A stretch of DNA of 64,000 nt, from NCBI RefSeq assembly GCF_011682045.1, contig NZ_VVIW01000007.1, positions 124,001 to 188,000 of the forward strand, written 5' to 3'. Origin of the DNA: Massilia aquatica. Its GTDB lineage: Bacteria > Pseudomonadota > Gammaproteobacteria > Burkholderiales > Burkholderiaceae_D. A program made the position numbers and the translations under genes. Positions 12,222-20,418 of this stretch are shown here, in pieces (position 1 is the first letter of the stretch; every line of letters starts with the position of its first letter). The notes beneath the pieces are model-generated. The model was not told the origin of the DNA. It ran no database searches and saw only the letters and a list, made by a program, of their open reading frames with translations.

Positions 12222-12239
12222 GTTGCATGGAAACAGCTA

Positions 12240-13452
12240 GGGACGCGCTGATTTATTCCACCACCGATGCCCCCGACGAGACGACGACCTGAGACAATAT
12301 CGAGGTATCCAACCGCCTCGCTACCGATCATGCAAAAGAGTTTTTCTGACCTCGAATACGCTGCCAAGAAGAAGCTGACACGGCGCGACTGTTTTCTCGC
12401 CGAGTCCGCAGAGTAACCCCATGGAGCACGCTGCACAATCTGATTGGACCGTTCTATCCAAAGGTGGTGGGCGACGGCCGTACGCCGATCGGACTGGCGC
12501 GCATGTTGTGCATGTACGTGGCCTAGCAGTGCTTCGGTCTGTCTGACGAAGGCATCGAAGATGCGATCTATGACAGTCAGCCCATTCGCGCATTTGTCGG
12601 TATCGATCTTGGCCTGGAAACCGCGCCCGATTCAACCATGCTGCTCAAGTTCCCCATCTGCTGAATGCCAACGGCCTGACTCGGCAGACCTTTAACACGA
12701 TCAACGGTCGTTTGGCCGAGAAGGGCCTGATGATACGAAGGGACCATCGCGGACGCGACGCTGATCGCCGCGCCACCATCGACCAAGAACGAGGATGGCA
12801 AGCGCGATTCCGAGATGCATCAGTCGAAGAAAGGCAATGACTGGCACTTCGGTATGACGGCTTACATTGGTGTTGATGCGGCATCGGGCCCTATTCATAC
12901 GGTCGTCGGCACTGCCGGCAACGTTTCCGACGTGGCGCAGTCACGTGCGCTGCTGCAGGGCGGCTAGACGGCAGTGCCGGGCGACGCCGGTTACCAGGGC
13001 GTCGAAAAACGGCTAGAAACGTGGGCAAATCGGTGACATGGCACCTCGCCACGAAGCGCGCCAAGCGCAAGGCACTTGGCGCGGAATCGACTGGGTCGCA
13101 AGCTGGAAAAGCTGGAGCACTTGAAGGCCCGCGTCCGCGCGAAAGTGGAGCATCCGTTCCACATCGTCAAAAACCTGTTTCTCCATTGGAAGACGCGCTA
13201 TCGCGGCTTGGACAAGAACACCGCTCAGCTGTTCACGCTGTCCGGCTTTGCCAACTTGGTACTGGCCGGCAGGTAATTGACGAGAACTGAAACCCGAAGT
13301 GCGTCCTGAGCGCTAAAAGACGCAAAGAATACTGCCAATTCGCTGAAAAACCGGCTTTAGCGGGGTCACGAAAGGCGCTTCAAGGTGCCGGCGCAACAGC
13401 GCGGAAAAAAGACGTCGCTGCACCGAAAATCGTTAATTGATCACCGCCTCCC
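12240..13452 (+). mobile_element. Decayed IS5-family insertion sequence (left copy)
   Basis: About 1.2 kb, the usual length for IS5 elements. The left end GGGACGCGCTGATTTATTCC (12240-12259) is matched imperfectly and inverted by the right end, which terminates in TGATCACCGCCTCCC at 13452. The bases outside are CTA on the left and TAA on the right, so no exact target duplication is seen. It holds one broken transposase gene in the same orientation as the right-hand copy at 16449-20316. Confidence 0.75.
12330..13276 (+). pseudogene. IS5-family transposase, disrupted by stops and frameshifts
   Basis: The sequence reads in pieces like an IS5-group transposase: start MQKSFSDLEYAAKKKLTRRD, then QCFGLSDEGIEDAIYDSQPI after an in-frame TAG where CAG is expected, then [49 protein letters not shown], and the C-terminal ARVRAKVEHPFHIVK...RYRGLDKNTAQLFTLSGFANL. 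Several nonsense codons and at least three frame changes separate the pieces, so no active enzyme is expected. Confidence 0.88.
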
Positions 13453-13515
13453 TAAGCCGAAGCAACTCGCATGCTGACCAGTCAAACGGGTTCACGTCCG
13501 TGTCGTGGCGCGTGA

Positions 13516-13839
13516 TTGGGGGTAACGTCGGAGGCACTGGACATATTCGTATCTAACGAATTTCGATGTGTCGCGAGCTTCGTTCAACGAGGCCACCGTA
13601 ATGACCGTGCGATTACTGCTCAGATGTTATTTTTGCACGTATGTACGCCGATGCCCATGAATGAATTCTTTGAAGTATTACTTCTGCGAGACCAAACTGT
13701 GTTAATGCCGAAAGAGCAAAATAAGCATCGAGTGTGTGAAGTTTTTTCTGATTTTATTGAGGTTGGCGCTGACGAAGAAGTATTCCCCTGTGGTATACTT
13801 GTGGGGTGGCAGCGTACGAAAAGCGAGTCGAATATCTAA
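13516..13839 (+). CDS. Possible small gene upstream of the ATPase/HNH module
   Basis: An open frame of up to 107 codons from TTG 13516, or 72 codons from ATG 13624. The AT-rich codon use (tta, gaa, gtt, aat) matches the two downstream genes rather than the IS. The sequence (EFFEVLLLRD, VCEVFSDFIEVGADEEVF) looks like a small folded protein, but I recognise no family. It ends 69 bases before the preferred ATPase start. It could be a third component of the module, a gene remnant, or chance. Confidence 0.4.
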   Translation: MGVTSEALDIFVSNEFRCVASFVQRGHRNDRAITAQMLFLHVCTPMPMNEFFEVLLLRDQTVLMPKEQNKHRVCEVFSDFIEVGADEEVFPCGILVGWQRTKSESNI

Positions 13840-13908
13840 AAAGCTCCACTCCTCAATGTGGTCGCTGTAGTTTCACAAAAATTAATTTCTAAAGAGGAGT
13901 ATAAACTC

Positions 13909-15447
13909 GTGCCTATCACAATCCAAAAATCTTCGAGTGGAGGTCGGACTGCTCCCGGCCACATTGTTTCACTGAATAGTAACAATTGGGATGATTACAG
14001 CTTCAAGACGCTTTTTCGTCTTAGCATTATTGATGAAGTTGGAGGTTGGACTGAAATTGGCGATGTCAAGATTGGTTTTGTCGCTCAACCTCCAAATAGC
14101 TGGACTCTTGAATCGCTAGAAAATTCACAACCAATGCTTGCCGACGGATTTTTCTCGATTGGTCAAGACGAAAGCTATTACGAAAATATCAGTGCGCTTC
14201 CTCCGTTAATTCGGGATGAGTTGTTGGTTGCGATGAGAGATGTTGTATTCGACCCAGAAATAATGAGAATCGCGAAAACGTCTGATGTATTTGGAACATC
14301 TTTGCTTAGGACTGTCTCGTTATCAACCGCGCTAGAGCAGTTTTCCCGTATCTTAGAAGGGGGAGCAGCACTAACGCCATTTCATTTTGGTTACTACAAA
14401 GCTCAAACTCATACTAGCGCCGGTGTTGCTCTAAGGTTTGAGGTTTTGCCAGGCTCCCTGCCATCTACCAATATACATGTTCTAATTGGCCGAAATGGCA
14501 TCGGGAAGACGACCCTTCTTAATAATATGATTTCAAGGTTGGTAGACATGCCTATCTCTGGTGCGGATTTCGGGGATTTTTATGATCTTCAGCTAGAAGA
14601 TACGCCTATCAATAATCAATATTTTACAAGCGTTATTTCTGCCTCGTTCAGTGCCTTTGACCCTTTCACACCGCCCATCGATAAAATAGGCGACAGTGAC
14701 ACTGTGAAATATACCTATATTGGTTTAAAGGAGGTGCATCAGGGAGCCACTGGTCGAGTATCTCGCCACAAAGATATTCATGAATTAGCCAAAGACTTCG
14801 TATCTAGCCTGAACGCATGTTTGAGCTTGCAGAAAAAAAGTGAGCGATGGGTCAAGGCTGTAGAAAGTCTGGAGTCAGATTTAAACTTTGCAGATATGGA
14901 CTTGACTCGGTTAGCTCACTCCGAACCGGGTGACTCTCGAAATGCACTCGCGCATCAGTTCTTTGCGAGAATGAGCTCCGGTCACGCTGTTGTGCTGCTT
15001 ACGCTAACTAAATTGGTAGAGCGGACGGAAGAGAAAACATTAATTTTGATGGATGAACCAGAGAGTCACTTACATCCCCCATTGCTTTCCGCTTTCGTTA
15101 GAGCACTTTCGGCCCTTCTAAAAAATCGTAATGGCGTCGCTATTATTGCTACGCACTCGCCCGTAATTTTGCAGGAAGTCCCAAAGGTTTGTGTGTGGAA
15201 ACTGCGGCGAAATCGCCTAGAGTTAAACGCAGACCGCCCTGATGATGAAACATTTGGTGAAAACGTCGGTACACTGACTCGTGATGTATTTGGCTTAGAG
15301 GTAACTAGTTCTGGTTACCACAGTATTTTGAAGGAAGCAGTCGATTCCGGGGAGTCGATGGACGAGATTATTGAGCGCTTTGCTGGGCAGATTGGCTATG
15401 AAGGTAGAGCACTGTTGCGTGCGCTCATCAAGAATCGAGGTAATTAA
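13909..15447 (+). CDS. AAA/ABC-type ATPase of a Septu-like defence module (PtuA-like)
   Basis: About 512 residues from the GTG at 13909, which has GAGGAG about 9 bases upstream; a frame from 13858 is also open. The ATPase core has Walker A GRNGIGKT (about 194-201), an ABC-signature-like SSGHAVVL (about 356-363), Walker B LILMDEPESHLHP (about 378-390) and ATHSP, the H-switch. This arrangement is that of the overcoming-lysogenization-defect/PtuA type of stand-alone ABC ATPases. The N-terminal ~190 residues are not recognised. The adjacent HNH gene, 2 bases away, makes a Septu-type anti-phage pair the likeliest reading. AT-rich codon use indicates acquisition by transfer. Confidence 0.85.
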   Translation: MPITIQKSSSGGRTAPGHIVSLNSNNWDDYSFKTLFRLSIIDEVGGWTEIGDVKIGFVAQPPNSWTLESLENSQPMLADGFFSIGQDESYYENISALPPLIRDELLVAMRDVVFDPEIMRIAKTSDVFGTSLLRTVSLSTALEQFSRILEGGAALTPFHFGYYKAQTHTSAGVALRFEVLPGSLPSTNIHVLIGRNGIGKTTLLNNMISRLVDMPISGADFGDFYDLQLEDTPINNQYFTSVISASFSAFDPFTPPIDKIGDSDTVKYTYIGLKEVHQGATGRVSRHKDIHELAKDFVSSLNACLSLQKKSERWVKAVESLESDLNFADMDLTRLAHSEPGDSRNALAHQFFARMSSGHAVVLLTLTKLVERTEEKTLILMDEPESHLHPPLLSAFVRALSALLKNRNGVAIIATHSPVILQEVPKVCVWKLRRNRLELNADRPDDETFGENVGTLTRDVFGLEVTSSGYHSILKEAVDSGESMDEIIERFAGQIGYEGRALLRALIKNRGN

Positions 15448-15449
15448 AT

Positions 15450-16313
15450 ATGAGGGTGATGGCTAATCCAACCGATAACGGCGGTGACGTATATGTTCTT
15501 TGTGTAAGCTCTATTGATAACCTTGGATTGAGAGCCAATCTGATAAGCGTAACAAATAAAATTGGAGACATGTGTACCGCATATGTGCAAATAGCTACGC
15601 GGGGAAATTTGTACCAGCTTCCACAGGATCATTCAGACAAAGAAGCGACATACCTCGGGAGCGCACGAAAAAAAGACTTTACGAATGTTTATAGCAACCA
15701 AATGGTTGCAGCAAACAAGCCAGGACGTGCTATTTATGATAGGATTCTAGGCTCTGCACCAGGTGGGAAATGTCCTTTGTGTGGCTTTGGGCAAGCAAAA
15801 ACGTTAGACCACTATTTGCCAAAGTCTAAATACCCGCAATTCGCGGTGTTTCCATCGAATCTGGTCCCCGCATGTTATGAGTGCAATGTCGGTAAGCGTA
15901 ATGGCGTCGCGATTGACCGAGTTGGTCAAAGCATCCACCCATATTTTGACCATTTACTTATCAATGAGCAATGGCTATTTGCTCGCGTGGTTCCAGACCC
16001 TTTTACAATTGAATTTTCCGTCGAGCCGCCGCGACACTGGGAGCGGGATGATGGAGACCGGGTGCGCTCGCATTTTTCGCTTATGGACCTGGAAAAAAGG
16101 TTCAATACGGAAGCGACTGATGAACTTGCCGCTATTCACGGCATCGTTAAGCGTAACGTGTTGCAATATGGATTCACTGCGCAAGACATCAGAGAGGATT
16201 TACTAGCAACAGCTGCTGAACGGCATGCTATTCAAAAAAACTCCTGGCAAACCGCGCTTTATCAAGCTCTCGGAAATAGCGATTGGTATTGCCGGGAGGG
16301 ATACCAGGCGTGA
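15450..16313 (+). CDS. HNH endonuclease of a Septu-like defence module (PtuB-like)
   Basis: 287 residues. A zinc-bound HNH domain occupies about residues 105-150: Cys108-x2-Cys111, the catalytic-region Asp120-His121 (LDHYLPKSKYP), Asn137 (SNLVPAC), then Cys142-x2-Cys145 with Asn146. This is the arrangement in PtuB of Septu systems and related effectors, predicted to cut DNA or RNA once the ATPase partner senses infection. The flanking ~105 and ~137 residues are not recognised. The start at 15450 has GAGG 9 bases upstream and lies 2 bases after the ATPase stop, so the two are co-expressed. Substrate and trigger are unknown. Confidence 0.85.
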   Translation: MRVMANPTDNGGDVYVLCVSSIDNLGLRANLISVTNKIGDMCTAYVQIATRGNLYQLPQDHSDKEATYLGSARKKDFTNVYSNQMVAANKPGRAIYDRILGSAPGGKCPLCGFGQAKTLDHYLPKSKYPQFAVFPSNLVPACYECNVGKRNGVAIDRVGQSIHPYFDHLLINEQWLFARVVPDPFTIEFSVEPPRHWERDDGDRVRSHFSLMDLEKRFNTEATDELAAIHGIVKRNVLQYGFTAQDIREDLLATAAERHAIQKNSWQTALYQALGNSDWYCREGYQA

Positions 16314-16531
16314 GTAGAGAATTTTATTTGTTAACAATTAGGATTTTTTTTCGGCGAGCTTAGAAAACTATGGCAGATTAAGGATTTTTACATATTGGGG
16401 CAAACTATGACTTTGTATGCTAAACTGCATGGGCAGATTGCAGAACTAGAAAAGTGCTGATTTAATCGCTTCTGGTCGCTCGCGCCGGGCCAAGCTCGCA
16501 CAATAGCCTATCCCATTTTCCCGCAGTCACG

Positions 16532-17028
16532 ATGAACCACTCGAGTTTTTCCGACGCCGAATTCGCCAGCAAGAAGAAGCTGACGCGGCGTGATCGTTTC
16601 CTGGCAGAGATCGAGGCAGCGGCACCTTGGCCTGCACTGATTGCAGCTCTGCTGCCTTACTATCTAAAGGGCGATGGACGTGGACGTCCGCCGCTTGGCT
16701 TGGAACGGATGCTGCGCATGTATATCCCAGCAATGCTTCGGCCTGTCGGACGAAGACATCGAAGATGCGATTTACGACAGCCAGGCAATCCGCGCCTTTG
16801 TTGGGGCGACCTCACGCATGAGTCGGCACCTGATGCGACCACGATGTCGAAGTTCCGACTACTGCTGGAGAACAACAACCTGGCACGCCGCATCTTCGAT
16901 TAAATCAACGGATACCTTGTCAGCAAAGGCTTGCTGATGCGCGAGGGAACCATCATTGATGTCACGTTGATCGCGGCGCCACCTTCTATCAAGAACAAGG
17001 ACGGCGAGCGTGATCCGGAAATGCACTA
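16532..17028 (+). pseudogene. IS5-family transposase, N-terminal part (interrupted)
   Basis: It begins MNHSSFSDAEFASKKKLTRR and reads through LGLERMLRMYI. A small deletion (atc-cca-gca for the expected atc-gcc-cag-caa) then shifts the frame to QQCFGLSDEDIEDAIYDSQ. The frame shifts back at DLTHESAPDATT, and a TAA replaces the expected Glu codon after RRIFD. The last codons, DPEMH then TAG, meet the IS630 insertion. The continuation is at 19691. Confidence 0.85.
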
Positions 17029-17033
17029 GTAGA

Positions 17034-17651
17034 TCATCCAGTTGATTGTGATGGATAGCAACGCGCCATCGTCGCTCTTGCGTGGCGCGACATGAATTGG
17101 CAACGGATCGGCGTGCCGCACTGATTGCGCGCATCTTGACAAGCGTTGACCAGTCTCGCCAGAGTGGTGATGGCTGAGGTACGGCGATCCAGGCACTGAC
17201 GCGACAGGGCAGCAAACTCAATTTCAGCCATGTTCAGCCAACTCCCATGCTTGGGCGTGTAGTGAAATTCAAGCTTTTTCAACAGGGAGTTCGCCTTTTC
17301 GGGAGGGAACGTGTCATATAACGATCCCGGTTTGTGCGTGTTCAAATTGTCCATGACTACCCGAATCACCTCGGCATGCGGATAGGTTTCCACAAGGAGC
17401 TCCATAGCGCGTGCAAAATCGGCCTTGGTACGTCGCTCGGTAACCCATGCTTCGCGCCGACCGGTCGCCGGTTCGCAAAACAGCATGATGTCGGCCACGC
17501 CGCAACGTACATATTCCGTATCTTCCCGCGCTGGCTGGCCTGGCTGCATTGGTTGAGCCGGTCTGGCGTCATCAATCAACTGCCGTGGCGTTTCATCGAA
17601 ACAGGTCACCGGTCGTTGGGCATCGTACGGGGCGTCATACAGGTCAAGCAC
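17034..17651 (-). pseudogene. IS630-family transposase, C-terminal DDE part
   Basis: It continues from the N-terminal piece as LDLYDAPYDAQRPVTCFDETP. The catalytic triad regions are CFDET (first Asp), VVMDNLNTH (second Asp) and HGSWLNMAEIEF (Glu). Deleting the IS3 element and one CAC copy gives an exact in-frame join (MEDV + LDLYDAPYD), so this lesion came from the IS3 insertion. Separate frameshifts lie in the N-terminal part. Confidence 0.85.
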
Positions 17652-17743
17652 TAAAGTGGACCCCACCGTCAAGACAATTCGCTCAATAATTTAAGCTATG
17701 GTCATGCCACTGTGTACAGCGGAACAGCGCTGTCCTGCCTTGC

Positions 17744-18724
17744 TTAATTTCCCACTCCAACGGCAGCGGAATTGACTGCGGCTTGCTCCCGGCAGGGCGG
17801 GGTTTGGGGCGGAGCCCCATGCCGCACCGTTGCACCCGAAGTTGCCACCGCCACCGCCAAGCCGCTGCTGTATTTGTCCACGATCATCGCGCCACCGCCT
17901 TTGCCACTGGCATATACCACGTCCGGCGTTTGGTAGTTCAACGACTGGTGCGGCCGTTCCTCGTTGTAGAAGGCAAAGTAGCGCGTGAGCCCGACCGTTA
18001 GGTCGCCCATCGTCGCGTACCCGTTGAGGTATACGTCCTCGTGCTTGACATTGCGCCACAGGCGCTCAACGAAGATGTTGTCCAGTGCCCGACCCCGCCC
18101 GTCCATGCTGATCGCCACGCCTTCCCGCAGCAACACGCCGGTGAATGCCTGGCTCGTGAACTGGACGCCTTGATCGGTGTTGAAGATGTCCGGCTTGCCG
18201 TGACCAATCAACGCCTCTTCCAGGCAGTCCACGCAGAACGAAGCATCCATGCTGTTACTGATACGCCAGGACAGCACGCGCCGCGAATACCAGTCGATCA
18301 CCGCCACCAAGTAAGCGAAGCCCCGCGCCAGCCTGATGTACGTGATGTCGGTACTCCACACGTGGTTGGGCCGGACCACCGCCACGCCGCGCAGCAAGTA
18401 CGGATACACCTTGTGCCCCGGATGTCGGACCGTCGTGCTTGGACCGGGCGCCATCCCCGCCAGACCCGTCACGCGCATCAGGCGCTGCACCCGCTTGCGG
18501 TTCACCAACCAGCCCTGTCGCAGCAGGATCACCACCATCCGCCGGCTGCCGTAGAACGGGTGCTGGGTGTACTCCTCGTCGATCAACCCGCACAGCACCA
18601 GATCGTTCTCGTCGGCGGCCAGCTCAGCGCGCGGCCGATACACCGTCGCCCGCGACACGCCGGCCAGGTCGCACTGGCGTACCAGCGGCACCTCGCTCTC
18701 ACGCTCAATCCAGCCCAACCGCAC
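17744..18724 (-). CDS. IS3-family OrfB (DDE transposase domain)
   Basis: 326 residues in the -1 frame relative to OrfA. The integrase core has all three catalytic positions: STDITYI, FNTDQGVQFTS and VERLWRNVKHEDVY. HTH-like sequence RQCDLAGVSRATVYR and the motif EEYTQHPFYGSRRM precede it. The ~50-residue tail after VVYASG is low in recognisable features. No stop or frameshift is visible other than the programmed one, so the transposase may be active. Confidence 0.92.
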   Translation of the reverse strand: MRLGWIERESEVPLVRQCDLAGVSRATVYRPRAELAADENDLVLCGLIDEEYTQHPFYGSRRMVVILLRQGWLVNRKRVQRLMRVTGLAGMAPGPSTTVRHPGHKVYPYLLRGVAVVRPNHVWSTDITYIRLARGFAYLVAVIDWYSRRVLSWRISNSMDASFCVDCLEEALIGHGKPDIFNTDQGVQFTSQAFTGVLLREGVAISMDGRGRALDNIFVERLWRNVKHEDVYLNGYATMGDLTVGLTRYFAFYNEERPHQSLNYQTPDVVYASGKGGGAMIVDKYSSGLAVAVATSGATVRHGAPPQTPPCREQAAVNSAAVGVGN

Positions 18725-18732
18725 AGCGCCGC

Positions 18733-19023
18733 TTACAGGCCTGACTTTTTTTTAAGCCAATCAAGCTCCATCTTCAGGCGCCCGATCTCGCCGTACAAAC
18801 GGTCCTCGCTCTCGTGCTCCAGCTCCACCTTGGGGCCGCGCTTGCCTTCGAACAGCGAGCCGGCGTTGGCCAGAATCTCCTTCTTCCACTGACTCACCAT
18901 CACTGGATGAACGCCATGCAGTTGCGCTATCTCGTTGACCGTCTTGACCCCGCGTACTGCCTCCAAACCCACCTTCGCTTTAAACTCCGCGCTGTGCACT
19001 TTCCGCTTCTTTGCTTCCGTCAT
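18733..19023 (-). CDS. IS3-family OrfA (helix-turn-helix protein)
   Basis: About 96 residues from the ATG at 19023. The sequence KKRKVHSAEFKAKVGLEAV, then EIAQLHGVHPVMVSQWKKEIL, is the DNA-binding HTH of IS3 OrfA, followed by a leucine-zipper-like helix ending in DWLKKKSGL. The A8 run at 18746-18753 near its end is a -1 slippery sequence that would join it to OrfB as the OrfAB transposase. Confidence 0.92.
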   Translation of the reverse strand: MTEAKKRKVHSAEFKAKVGLEAVRGVKTVNEIAQLHGVHPVMVSQWKKEILANAGSLFEGKRGPKVELEHESEDRLYGEIGRLKMELDWLKKKSGL

Positions 19024-19090
19024 TACCGGCCATCCTCCGTTGAGGACCATAGCTTAAACTGCTGTCTCAAATCGTGGGTCCACTATACAC

Positions 19091-19585
19091 ATCTTCCATG
19101 GCAGCGACAAAATCGCCACTTACTTCGGGTGTGCACCATTCCCGTTTTTGCTATGGCTTGAGGTCGTTTTTTTGAGGTAGGATCGCACCGTCTCCGGTGA
19201 AATCGAATCGGCCAGTCCCAGCTCCACCACTCGCCCGGCTAGCAATTTGAGTATCCAGCGCGCATGCTTCTCGTCGGGGGTACTGCACGCTTCGGCAATC
19301 AATCGGGCTTGCGTGTGCTCGTCGAGCTTCAATTGCGCGCCTGGTCGCGGCCTATCCACCAGCGCCGCCTCCACGCCTTCCTCCGCGCAATGCTTGCGCA
19401 CACGATCCACCGTCGCGCTGCCAACGCCGAGCGCATCAACAATTTCGGCGTTCGTCCGACCTTCGTGGCTCAACAACAGAATGCGTGCACGCGTCAGCTT
19501 ACGCGCGGCATGTTTCCCCCTTGCTCAACAACTCTGTTAATTGCTCACGTTCCGATTCTGTCAGGATAATTCGATATTTCAACAT
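19091..19585 (-). pseudogene. IS630-family transposase, N-terminal part
   Basis: It starts at ATG 19585 (MLKYRIILTESEREQL). A run of five G near 19520 shifts the frame relative to the family sequence KHAARKLTRARILLLSHEGRT. The helix-turn-helix NAEIVDALGVGSATVDRVRKH follows, with VDRPRPGAQLKLDE. A second one-base shift occurs near 19130, where AHPEVSGDFVAAMEDV should be read. The IS3 element interrupts directly after MEDV. Confidence 0.85.
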
Positions 19586-19690
19586 GACGTCACTCCAGTA
19601 AAAATGCACACGGAGCTTAGACATCAAAATATTGACTCTGTTTAGTCGGGTCTGCTGGCAAACTATCACATCCAGTTAGACGATCTACTA

Positions 19691-20176
19691 GTCCAAAAAG
19701 GGGAATGACTGGCGCTTCGGCATGAACGCTCATGTCGAAATAGACATGGCCACCGGACTGGTTCATTCGGTCGTCGGCACGGCTGGTAACGCGTCCGACG
19801 TAACTCAGGCGCATGCGCTGTTGCATGGCGGCGAGATGGCTGTGCTGGGCGATGCGGGCTATCAAGGCGTGGCCAAGCCTCCTGAGAATACCGGCAAAGC
19901 GATTGACTGGCACTCGGCAATGCGGTCTGGATTGCGCAAGGCGCTCAAGAAAAACCGGCCGGGTGTGTAAAAGAAAAACTGGAACATACGAAGGCAAGTG
20001 TGCGCGCCAAAGTTGAGCATTGCTTCCACGTGATCAGGTGCCTGTCTGAGCATTGCAAGACACGCTATCGCGGCTTGGCAAAGAACACAGCAACAGCTGT
20101 TCTCACTGTTTGCCGTCACCAACCTTGTGTTGAGCCGCAGGTTCTTTGGCCGACAGCACACTCAAGTTGCGTCCTA
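19691..20176 (+). pseudogene. IS5-family transposase, C-terminal part
   Basis: Continuation of the piece ending at 17028: KKGNDWRFGMNAHVEIDMATGLVHSVVGTAG, then HALLHGGEMAVLGDAGYQGV, KALKKNRPGV and, after a stop, the VRAKVEHCFHVIR...RYRGLAKNTA region. A frame change follows LAKNTA, so the end is degraded. The remaining bases to 20316 are non-coding IS end. Confidence 0.85.
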
Positions 20177-20418
20177 TGCGCGGCGCATGGGGGAAATCCG
20201 TTCGAATCAGTCAATTTCGCGCTTTCGGCGAATTTCATTCTGAAAGTTGGCGCCGAAAAGTCGTGCCGAAAAACACGTCTCTGATTGTCTTAGAAACCGA
20301 TTAAATCAGCACTTTCCTACCTGCGTAATCGTTGGTATCGCGTATGGCGGCGCCGTGCAAAAACACGCATCCCGCACATCCCGTACAATCGCCTTTTGCC
20401 CCAAGCGAGCCCTATCCC

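Follow-up and report, generated by a model that had tools for sequence, protein, structure and literature searches.

What is the pair of genes at positions 13909 to 16313 of a 64,000-nucleotide (nt) stretch of the Massilia aquatica genome (NCBI RefSeq assembly GCF_011682045.1, contig NZ_VVIW01000007.1, positions 124,001 to 188,000; hereafter the window, meaning that whole stretch), and what might it do for its carrier? A reading made from the sequence alone had proposed a two-gene ATPase and HNH nuclease module resembling Septu (PtuA/PtuB) anti-phage defence. The module is confirmed, with both genes intact, 2 nt apart and encoding proteins of 512 and 287 amino acids (aa). We find that the two proteins are homologues of Ea59 and Ea31 of phage lambda, an identity that the sequence-only reading had not seen, and that, on its profile matches, the pair is a member of the catalogued computational candidate defence family PDC-M01. 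We consider it probable that the pair is a mobile, Septu-like defence module of this lambda Ea59-Ea31/PDC-M01 family, defence being the part that we infer. The window locus by itself adds one more member to a catalogued candidate family; it is the link to lambda that matters.

Lambda Ea59 is 44% identical to the window ATPase, and Ea31 shares 31-33% identity with the window HNH protein (32.5% over 98%). The lambda proteins match the same PADLOC models as their window counterparts, PDC-M01A at 3.9e-201 and PDC-M01B at 5.8e-113. Homology is full-length for both proteins, and the gene order and close spacing are shared; in lambda, ea59, the ATPase gene, lies directly upstream of ea31 with a 4-nt overlap, between attP/int and ea47. 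We take both genes to belong to the lambda b region. When 50,697 phage records were searched with the HNH protein by tblastn, 22 matched, 18 of them covering at least 80% of the query, and 17 of the 20 phage matches listed are lambda or lambda-like, with 32.5% identity to the window protein. Records of 48.4-48.5 kb labelled as Stenotrophomonas, Paenibacillus and Salmonella plasmids (NZ_CP104294, NZ_CP068597 and NZ_CP082339) and as a Campylobacter phage (MW057783) match with lambda's identity and coverage, and appear to be misnamed lambda DNA. Of 5,426 complete E. coli genomes, 68 contain at least 80% of the lambda pair, and 90 contain, at the same coverage, a second E. coli version of the pair that lies near icd in one record.

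Among the titles and abstract openings listed in full-text searches for ea31 and ea59, none concerned a defence role. The main text of a yeast two-hybrid map of lambda, as far as available, places Ea59 among the proteins with one interaction and does not name Ea31 (PMC3224144). The literature searched contained neither the lambda identity nor a counted linkage of the family to restriction-modification (R-M) genes, although the embedding in R-M loci may already be known to those who nominated the PDC families. Membership of ea59-ea31 makes the function of the family directly testable, as lambda, K-12 and coliphage panels are easy to use.

The assignment to PDC-M01 rests on adjacent genes that match both models of the family near full length. 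In PADLOC, the ATPase matched PDC-M01A at 3.4e-197 over residues 4-510 and the HNH protein matched PDC-M01B at 4.9e-89 over residues 1-286; among the best 25 of 49 matches of the HNH protein, all are to PDC-M01B. The corresponding PHROGs families are phrog_8066 (1.7e-164) for the ATPase and phrog_10378 (7e-67) for the HNH protein. Pfam recognized AAA_21 in the ATPase and HNH in the nuclease, the latter at 19.1 bits, under the cut-off of 21.4. That PADLOC keeps separate PDC-M01 models fits the earlier guess of a distinct subtype. The available parts of the literature naming PDC-M01 describe no experiment on it.

All of the motifs named in the sequence-only reading are present, including the HNH string CPLC...LDH...N...CYEC, and their positions are collected in Table 1 with the other features of the locus. 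The key residues given there for the ATPase and for the HNH core are invariant in every one of the 65 aligned ATPases and 68 aligned HNH proteins, respectively. By analogy, we take the four cysteines of the HNH core to be zinc ligands. The ATPase frame, which ends with the stop codon at 15445-15447, also contains an alternative GTG at 13858; the GTG at 13909 is probably the start, since a Shine-Dalgarno-like AGAGGAG precedes it.

Table 1. Features of the ATPase-HNH locus and its flanks in the window.
Feature	Coordinates	Strand	Details
ABC-type ATPase gene, PDC-M01A/PtuA-like, lambda Ea59 homologue	13909..15447	+	512 aa
HNH nuclease gene, PDC-M01B, lambda Ea31 homologue	15450..16313	+	287 aa
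AGAGGAG, Shine-Dalgarno-like	13893..13899	+	9 nt ahead of ATPase GTG start; read directly
N-terminal alpha/beta part of ATPase, about 155 residues	13909..14373	+	model secondary structure; precedes strands entering Walker A
Walker A GRNGIGKT, ATPase residues 194-201	14488..14511	+	from sequence; K200 in 65/65
Walker B LILMDEPESHLHP to H-switch ATHSP, ATPase residues 378-418	15040..15162	+	from sequence; D382, E383, H416 in 65/65
HNH core: C108/C111, C142/C145, D120-H121, N137, N146	15771..15887	+	identical in 68/68
Left IS-like repeat copy	12234..13461		diverged; same orientation as right copy; right end judged by eye
107-aa open reading frame	13516..13839		next to the pair
Right IS-like repeat copy	16436..20330		inverted-repeat ends 16436-16471/20295-20330
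Stretch splitting right IS-like copy	17022..19695		inverted repeats and transposase-like open reading frames

The N-terminal part of the ATPase had been called unfamiliar, and it proved so. The strands entering Walker A start near residue 158 of the predicted structure, and a Pfam search found no match to the region before them. Its conserved residues are W27, D29, K54, Y91 and R134, with D29, Y91 and R134 identical in 65/65 aligned ATPases; D29 and R134 differ in the plasmid homologue L028. The best PDB sequence match of a profile of 23 such N-termini was SarX (E 0.031 over 47 positions), which we treated as chance and rejected as a relative.

If the two genes form a module, they should be found together elsewhere. 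A first genome scan with a single HNH sequence found no relative. Scanning with a 13-row HNH alignment matched at least 598 stretches, with at least 330 relatives among them, and the best 80 were kept; from a viral scan with the ATPase alignment, 80 of 101 matches were kept and the 15 under 100 bits dropped, leaving 65. The ATPase gene adjoins the HNH gene on the same strand in 78 of the 80 genome loci, and the HNH gene is next to the ATPase gene in 62 of the 65 viral contigs, so that the partner is present in 140 of 145 relatives; the other five (two genomic, three viral) are at contig ends. Start and stop codons overlap by 4 or 1 nt in 57 of the 109 loci with a placeable start. Hosts of the relatives span at least Pseudomonadota, Actinomycetota, Bacillota, Bacteroidota, Cyanobacteriota and Planctomycetota. 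What the sequences show is that the two genes stay together, in fixed order and at close spacing, across very diverse bacteria and phages, the ABC ATPase with its motifs intact and the HNH protein with its core intact. No third gene is universal: when the same-strand open reading frames (ORFs) that stop no more than 150 nt from where the ATPase frame begins were clustered, 62 loci gave 41 clusters, none with more than five members, and we rejected a fixed third component on this ground.

In a Roseinatronobacter locus (L033 3145-6849), an IS3 transposase gene stands between the ATPase gene and the HNH gene, at a distance of about 1.2 kb from one to the other. On a Janthinobacterium plasmid (L027 3306-6416), a 1,036-aa protein with sub-threshold matches to STAND-NTPases ends 34 bp before the ATPase gene and is a possible sensor partner. 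In one viral contig, the ORF before the pair (L141 5420-5815) has a weak match, below the cut-off, to Tad2-like Thoeris anti-defence proteins (E 5.2e-4).

How close is the pair to Septu? AlphaFold2 models built from 65 ATPase and 68 HNH sequences had mean predicted local distance difference test scores of 91.9 and 97.2, respectively. In Foldseek searches of the PDB, PtuA chains from retrons (Ec78/Eco7/Ec83/I-A) and Septu took ranks 1-37 for the ATPase, from E 8.7e-10, and retron PtuB took ranks 1-6 for the HNH protein (E 9.5e-4 to 0.011), the next target being at E 1.0. Profile comparisons of the ATPase agree, as retron PtuA ranked first among PDB sequences (4.2e-9) and the C-lobe aligned with 14 PtuA-type proteins at an hhalign E of 7.4e-17. 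The HNH profile aligned with 14 PtuB-type proteins at 1.4e-7. Kinship with Septu is supported by the ranking of these fold matches, by the gene order and pairing, and by the PADLOC PtuA1 model PDLC00282, to which the ATPase matches at 2.2e-183. The results do not support placing the pair in Septu proper. Profile searches of the kind suggested with the earlier proposal returned PtuA1, PDC-M01A and PDC-M01B from PADLOC, but NCBIfam PtuA (NF041760, retron Ec78 PtuA) scored 47.6 bits, far short of its cut-off of 500, and no NCBIfam family, TIGR02646 included, was matched by the HNH protein at E<=1. The proposed agreement in size decided nothing: the 512-aa ATPase falls between solved Septu PtuA (465) and retron PtuA (542-552), the 287-aa HNH protein exceeds solved PtuB (215-266), and TIGR02646 frames reach 353 aa, stop to stop, so that sizes neither prove nor exclude PtuAB.

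The pair could nevertheless be functionally PtuAB, with the same cutting of DNA or transfer RNA (tRNA) and an extra N-terminal part that is a minor elaboration. The PtuA1 model does fit residues 20-510, and one survey reported 41 cases where PADLOC gave a single system both Septu and PDC-M01 labels (PMC11811056). We think this account unlikely, given the NCBIfam results, the separate PDC-M01 models and a Walker A lysine at residue 200, compared with 43 or 44 in Septu-type PtuA.

For the Septu-like module that we favour, PtuAB suggests how the parts would work. The ATPase would assemble with the HNH nuclease and restrain it, infection would release the nuclease, and the freed nuclease would cut a nucleic acid, stopping the infected cell; the N-terminal part of the ATPase is likely a sensor or docking part. 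Speaking for such a module are the profile and fold matches, the constant pairing, the invariant core residues, the patchy distribution described below and, near relatives, restriction or other defence-like genes (HsdM/S/R, type IIG, QatC-like, LmuB-like), with more type I R-M in the flanks than in control windows. In Septu EcB88, Walker and HNH substitutions are reported to abolish immunity, and tRNA-Tyr is cut in its variable loop on infection (PMC13096335). PtuA and PtuB of retron-Eco7 reportedly arrest growth only together and deplete tRNA-Tyr, direct cleavage being left open, and another Septu is reported to cut DNA (PMC11555353). As tRNA-Tyr is cut or depleted in two of these PtuAB systems and DNA is reportedly cut by a third, by analogy tRNA would be as likely a substrate as DNA.

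Several results weigh against a Septu-like defence module. Query-normalised whole-chain template modelling (TM) scores are low, at 0.29-0.42 for PtuA and 0.34-0.38 for PtuB, and all six PtuB fold matches come from retron Ec78/Eco7 entries, none from Septu itself; with matches from one retron system and scores this low, the kinship is distant. At the sequence level, the HNH profile aligned better with 10 HNH_5 control proteins (2.3e-11) than with PtuB, and among PDB sequences 4h9d, another HNH protein, came ahead of PtuB (1.3e-4 and 1.1e-3). Because the control aligns better, the HNH core alone is not evidence for PtuB; we rejected the HNH protein as a clear PtuB by sequence, and only the whole-chain fold comparison favours PtuB. 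Beside the window pair lie only remnants resembling insertion sequences (IS) and an unmatched 107-aa ORF, with no recognised defence gene. A search of 13250-16600 for sigma-70-like promoters found none, where shuffled sequences average 5.0; RNA-family, promoter and terminator scans gave nothing useful. Finally, we found no report of a family member blocking a phage.

The neighbours of the relatives brought R-M genes into view, a linkage that the sequence-only reading had also not seen. After four near-identical or duplicate records were dropped (L078, L081, L084 and L085), 76 genome loci remained. HsdM, HsdS or HsdR occurs in the fetched stretch of 12 of these and in none of 60 stretches of 14.8 kb taken as controls from genomes in the same phylum as the window (Fisher p 6e-4), a comparison biased toward the test side in that the Hsd profiles were built from the same neighbours. 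Type I systems are not rare in the phylum, as HsdM_N was found in 55 of 100 of its genomes. Among the 72 loci with both genes delimited, a same-strand gene ends within 60 bp upstream of the pair in 16, and in 13 of these it is an R-M or DNA-methylation gene: HsdS in four (L047, L067, L088, L096), HsdR in five (L057, L060, L062, L064, L076), type IIG in two (L109, scanned, and L123, by clustering with L109) and a C5 methylase in two (L082, L112). The remaining three are a plasmid Rep (L053) and two proteins with no Pfam match (L070, L100). HsdS or HsdR is thus within 60 bp upstream in 9 of 72 relatives. In L047, a single strand carries hsdM-hsdS-ATPase-HNH-hsdR, the gap from hsdS to the ATPase ORF being 2 bases and that from HNH to hsdR 24; in L096, hsdR comes two ORFs after the pair. 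Four of the HsdR-linked loci (L057, L060, L062, L064) form one clade. On an 81-row ATPase tree, the 11 operon-linked rows need at least eight changes, counted without a shuffle control, indicating that the linkage recurs. That the pair repeatedly follows hsdS, hsdR, type IIG or C5-methylase genes suggests some functional link with restriction.

The type IIG genes of L109 (597-5465) and L123 (567-5465) encode proteins of about 1,620 aa and stop no more than 4 nt from the ATPase ORF; PADLOC identifies the L109 protein as a type IIG restriction-methyltransferase. Scans of ten large upstream ORFs also recognised QatC-like, LmuB-like, CHAT and GHKL-like proteins, which are separated from the ATPase by 57-123 bp. 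Two viral contigs have type I genes beside the pair, L163 and, by a weak HsdS match, L179.

One explanation of this linkage is that the family senses the loss of, or interference with, an R-M enzyme as PrrC does, and that the HNH protein then disables the cell. PrrC is reported to be embedded in a type IC locus and to wake when the enzyme is inhibited (PMC12707154, PMC2610378). The upstream genes, the placement between hsdS and hsdR in L047 and the recurrence on the tree all speak for such guarding, and for stand-alone copies such as that of the window, the guarded R-M systems may be located elsewhere; in this host, HsdM_N was matched on contigs C3, C11 and C47. However, Hsd genes are absent from the fetched stretch in 64 of the 76 loci, as they are from lambda's annotated 7.9-kb stretch, and the window's own contig (C77) has no HsdM_N match. 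Moreover, defence genes cluster anyway: DarTG2 is reported between hsdS and hsdR in one island and is not called a guard in the available text (PMC12255303), so position alone does not prove guarding. PrrC and RloC are also single proteins with a different nuclease. We regard guarding of restriction by the family as quite unlikely. A more specific proposal sees in lambda ea59-ea31 and the related bacterial pairs a counterpart of PrrC that is made of two genes and uses an HNH nuclease. Such a guard would have an N-terminal sensor of its own to monitor R-M systems or phage effects on them and, once released, would cut tRNA or DNA to abort infection; this is more doubtful still. If true, a prophage would supply its host with a guard that in other settings is found within type I restriction operons. 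Even for the Septu-like module that we favour, a copy that sits in an R-M operon may act like PrrC.

Two further observations concern type I loci. On host contig C47 (L314 220-8263, minus strand), hsdR-hsdM-hsdS is followed, with a 4-nt overlap, by a second Septu-like/TIGR04435-like ATPase; about 220 bp of contig remain beyond this ATPase, so an HNH partner, if there is one, would be missing from the assembled sequence. For Aliidiomarina quisquiliarum, the available text of PMC12255303 names an ATPase pair that lies between hsdS and hsdR. The pair that we retrieved from this species (L061) has no Hsd match in its 12.7-kb locus and is not equated with the published one.

Is the window locus itself mobile? 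The sequence-only reading had pointed to AT-rich codons and IS flanks, and the composition of the pair does stand out: GC is 0.443 and 0.455 in the two 1-kb windows covering the pair and 0.505-0.710 in the other 62, and third-position GC of the two genes is 0.41 and 0.44. IS-like repeats are indeed present on both sides, as two diverged copies in the same orientation whose ungapped stretches are 73-84% identical, the right copy being interrupted by a stretch with inverted repeats of its own (Table 1); the IS identity of the repeats and inner ORFs was judged by eye from ORFs, not by profile search. The adjacent 107-aa ORF had no match among the fetched loci or in Pfam. Within the window's own family, 31 of 195 genomes gave some match at E<=0.001, and only one (G584, 1.3e-94) was comparable in strength to the window pair, the next being at 2.4e-40; such patchy presence fits horizontal acquisition. 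The ATPase tree was made by a quick method and leaves 30 of its 78 inner branches open; on it, a Duganella ATPase forms a pair with that of the window (Shimodaira-Hasegawa-like approximate likelihood ratio test 98) inside a 39-row clade that also contains lambda.

Another reading is that the pair processes DNA or stabilizes elements for the benefit of its carrier and has no part in defence of the cell. It is present in lambda, in 65 viral contigs and on plasmids; several of ten scanned viral upstream ORFs are phage structural or lysogeny genes; and integrases were matched in 29 of 163 loci, though the excess over controls is weak (11/76 and 3/60, p 0.06). Yet lambda ea31 and ea59 were scored as non-essential in the available part of one report (PMC10695390), and a set of the bacterial loci adjoins R-M genes. 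We consider such housekeeping very unlikely.

Among known systems, PrrC and RloC resemble the window pair, as we picture it, in having an ABC ATPase that controls a nuclease, and, like PrrC, some relatives of the pair lie inside type I R-M loci. In PrrC and RloC, a single protein serves as both ATPase and anticodon nuclease, with an Arg-Glu-His triad (PMC2610378) and no HNH, whereas the window has two proteins and no R-M neighbour, its pair being neither embedded in nor abutting a type I operon. TIGR04435, the restriction system-associated AAA ATPase, resembles the C-terminal part of the window ATPase (1.2e-15), and a relative comes after hsdS in the same host, but the match scores 57.3 bits against a cut-off of 300. 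Septu, including the retron I-A effector PtuAB, has in common with the pair an ABC ATPase followed by an HNH protein, the ATPase C-lobe and the C-x2-C and H-N core, and it provides the best PDB fold matches for both chains, though at low TM-scores. It differs in the position of Walker A; the part ahead of this motif is longer in the window ATPase by about 155 residues relative to Septu PtuA and by about 100 relative to retron Ec83 PtuA (the lysine is residue 43 in Septu EcB88 (PMC13096335) and 44 in TIGR02646-linked ATPases), and the window ATPase has SSGH in what we label the signature position. With PDC-M01, we saw no difference. The lambda pair has the same order, core residues and PADLOC models as the window pair; its genes overlap by 4 nt where those of the window are separated by 2 nt, and it sits between attP/int and ea47 where the window pair sits between IS-like remnants.

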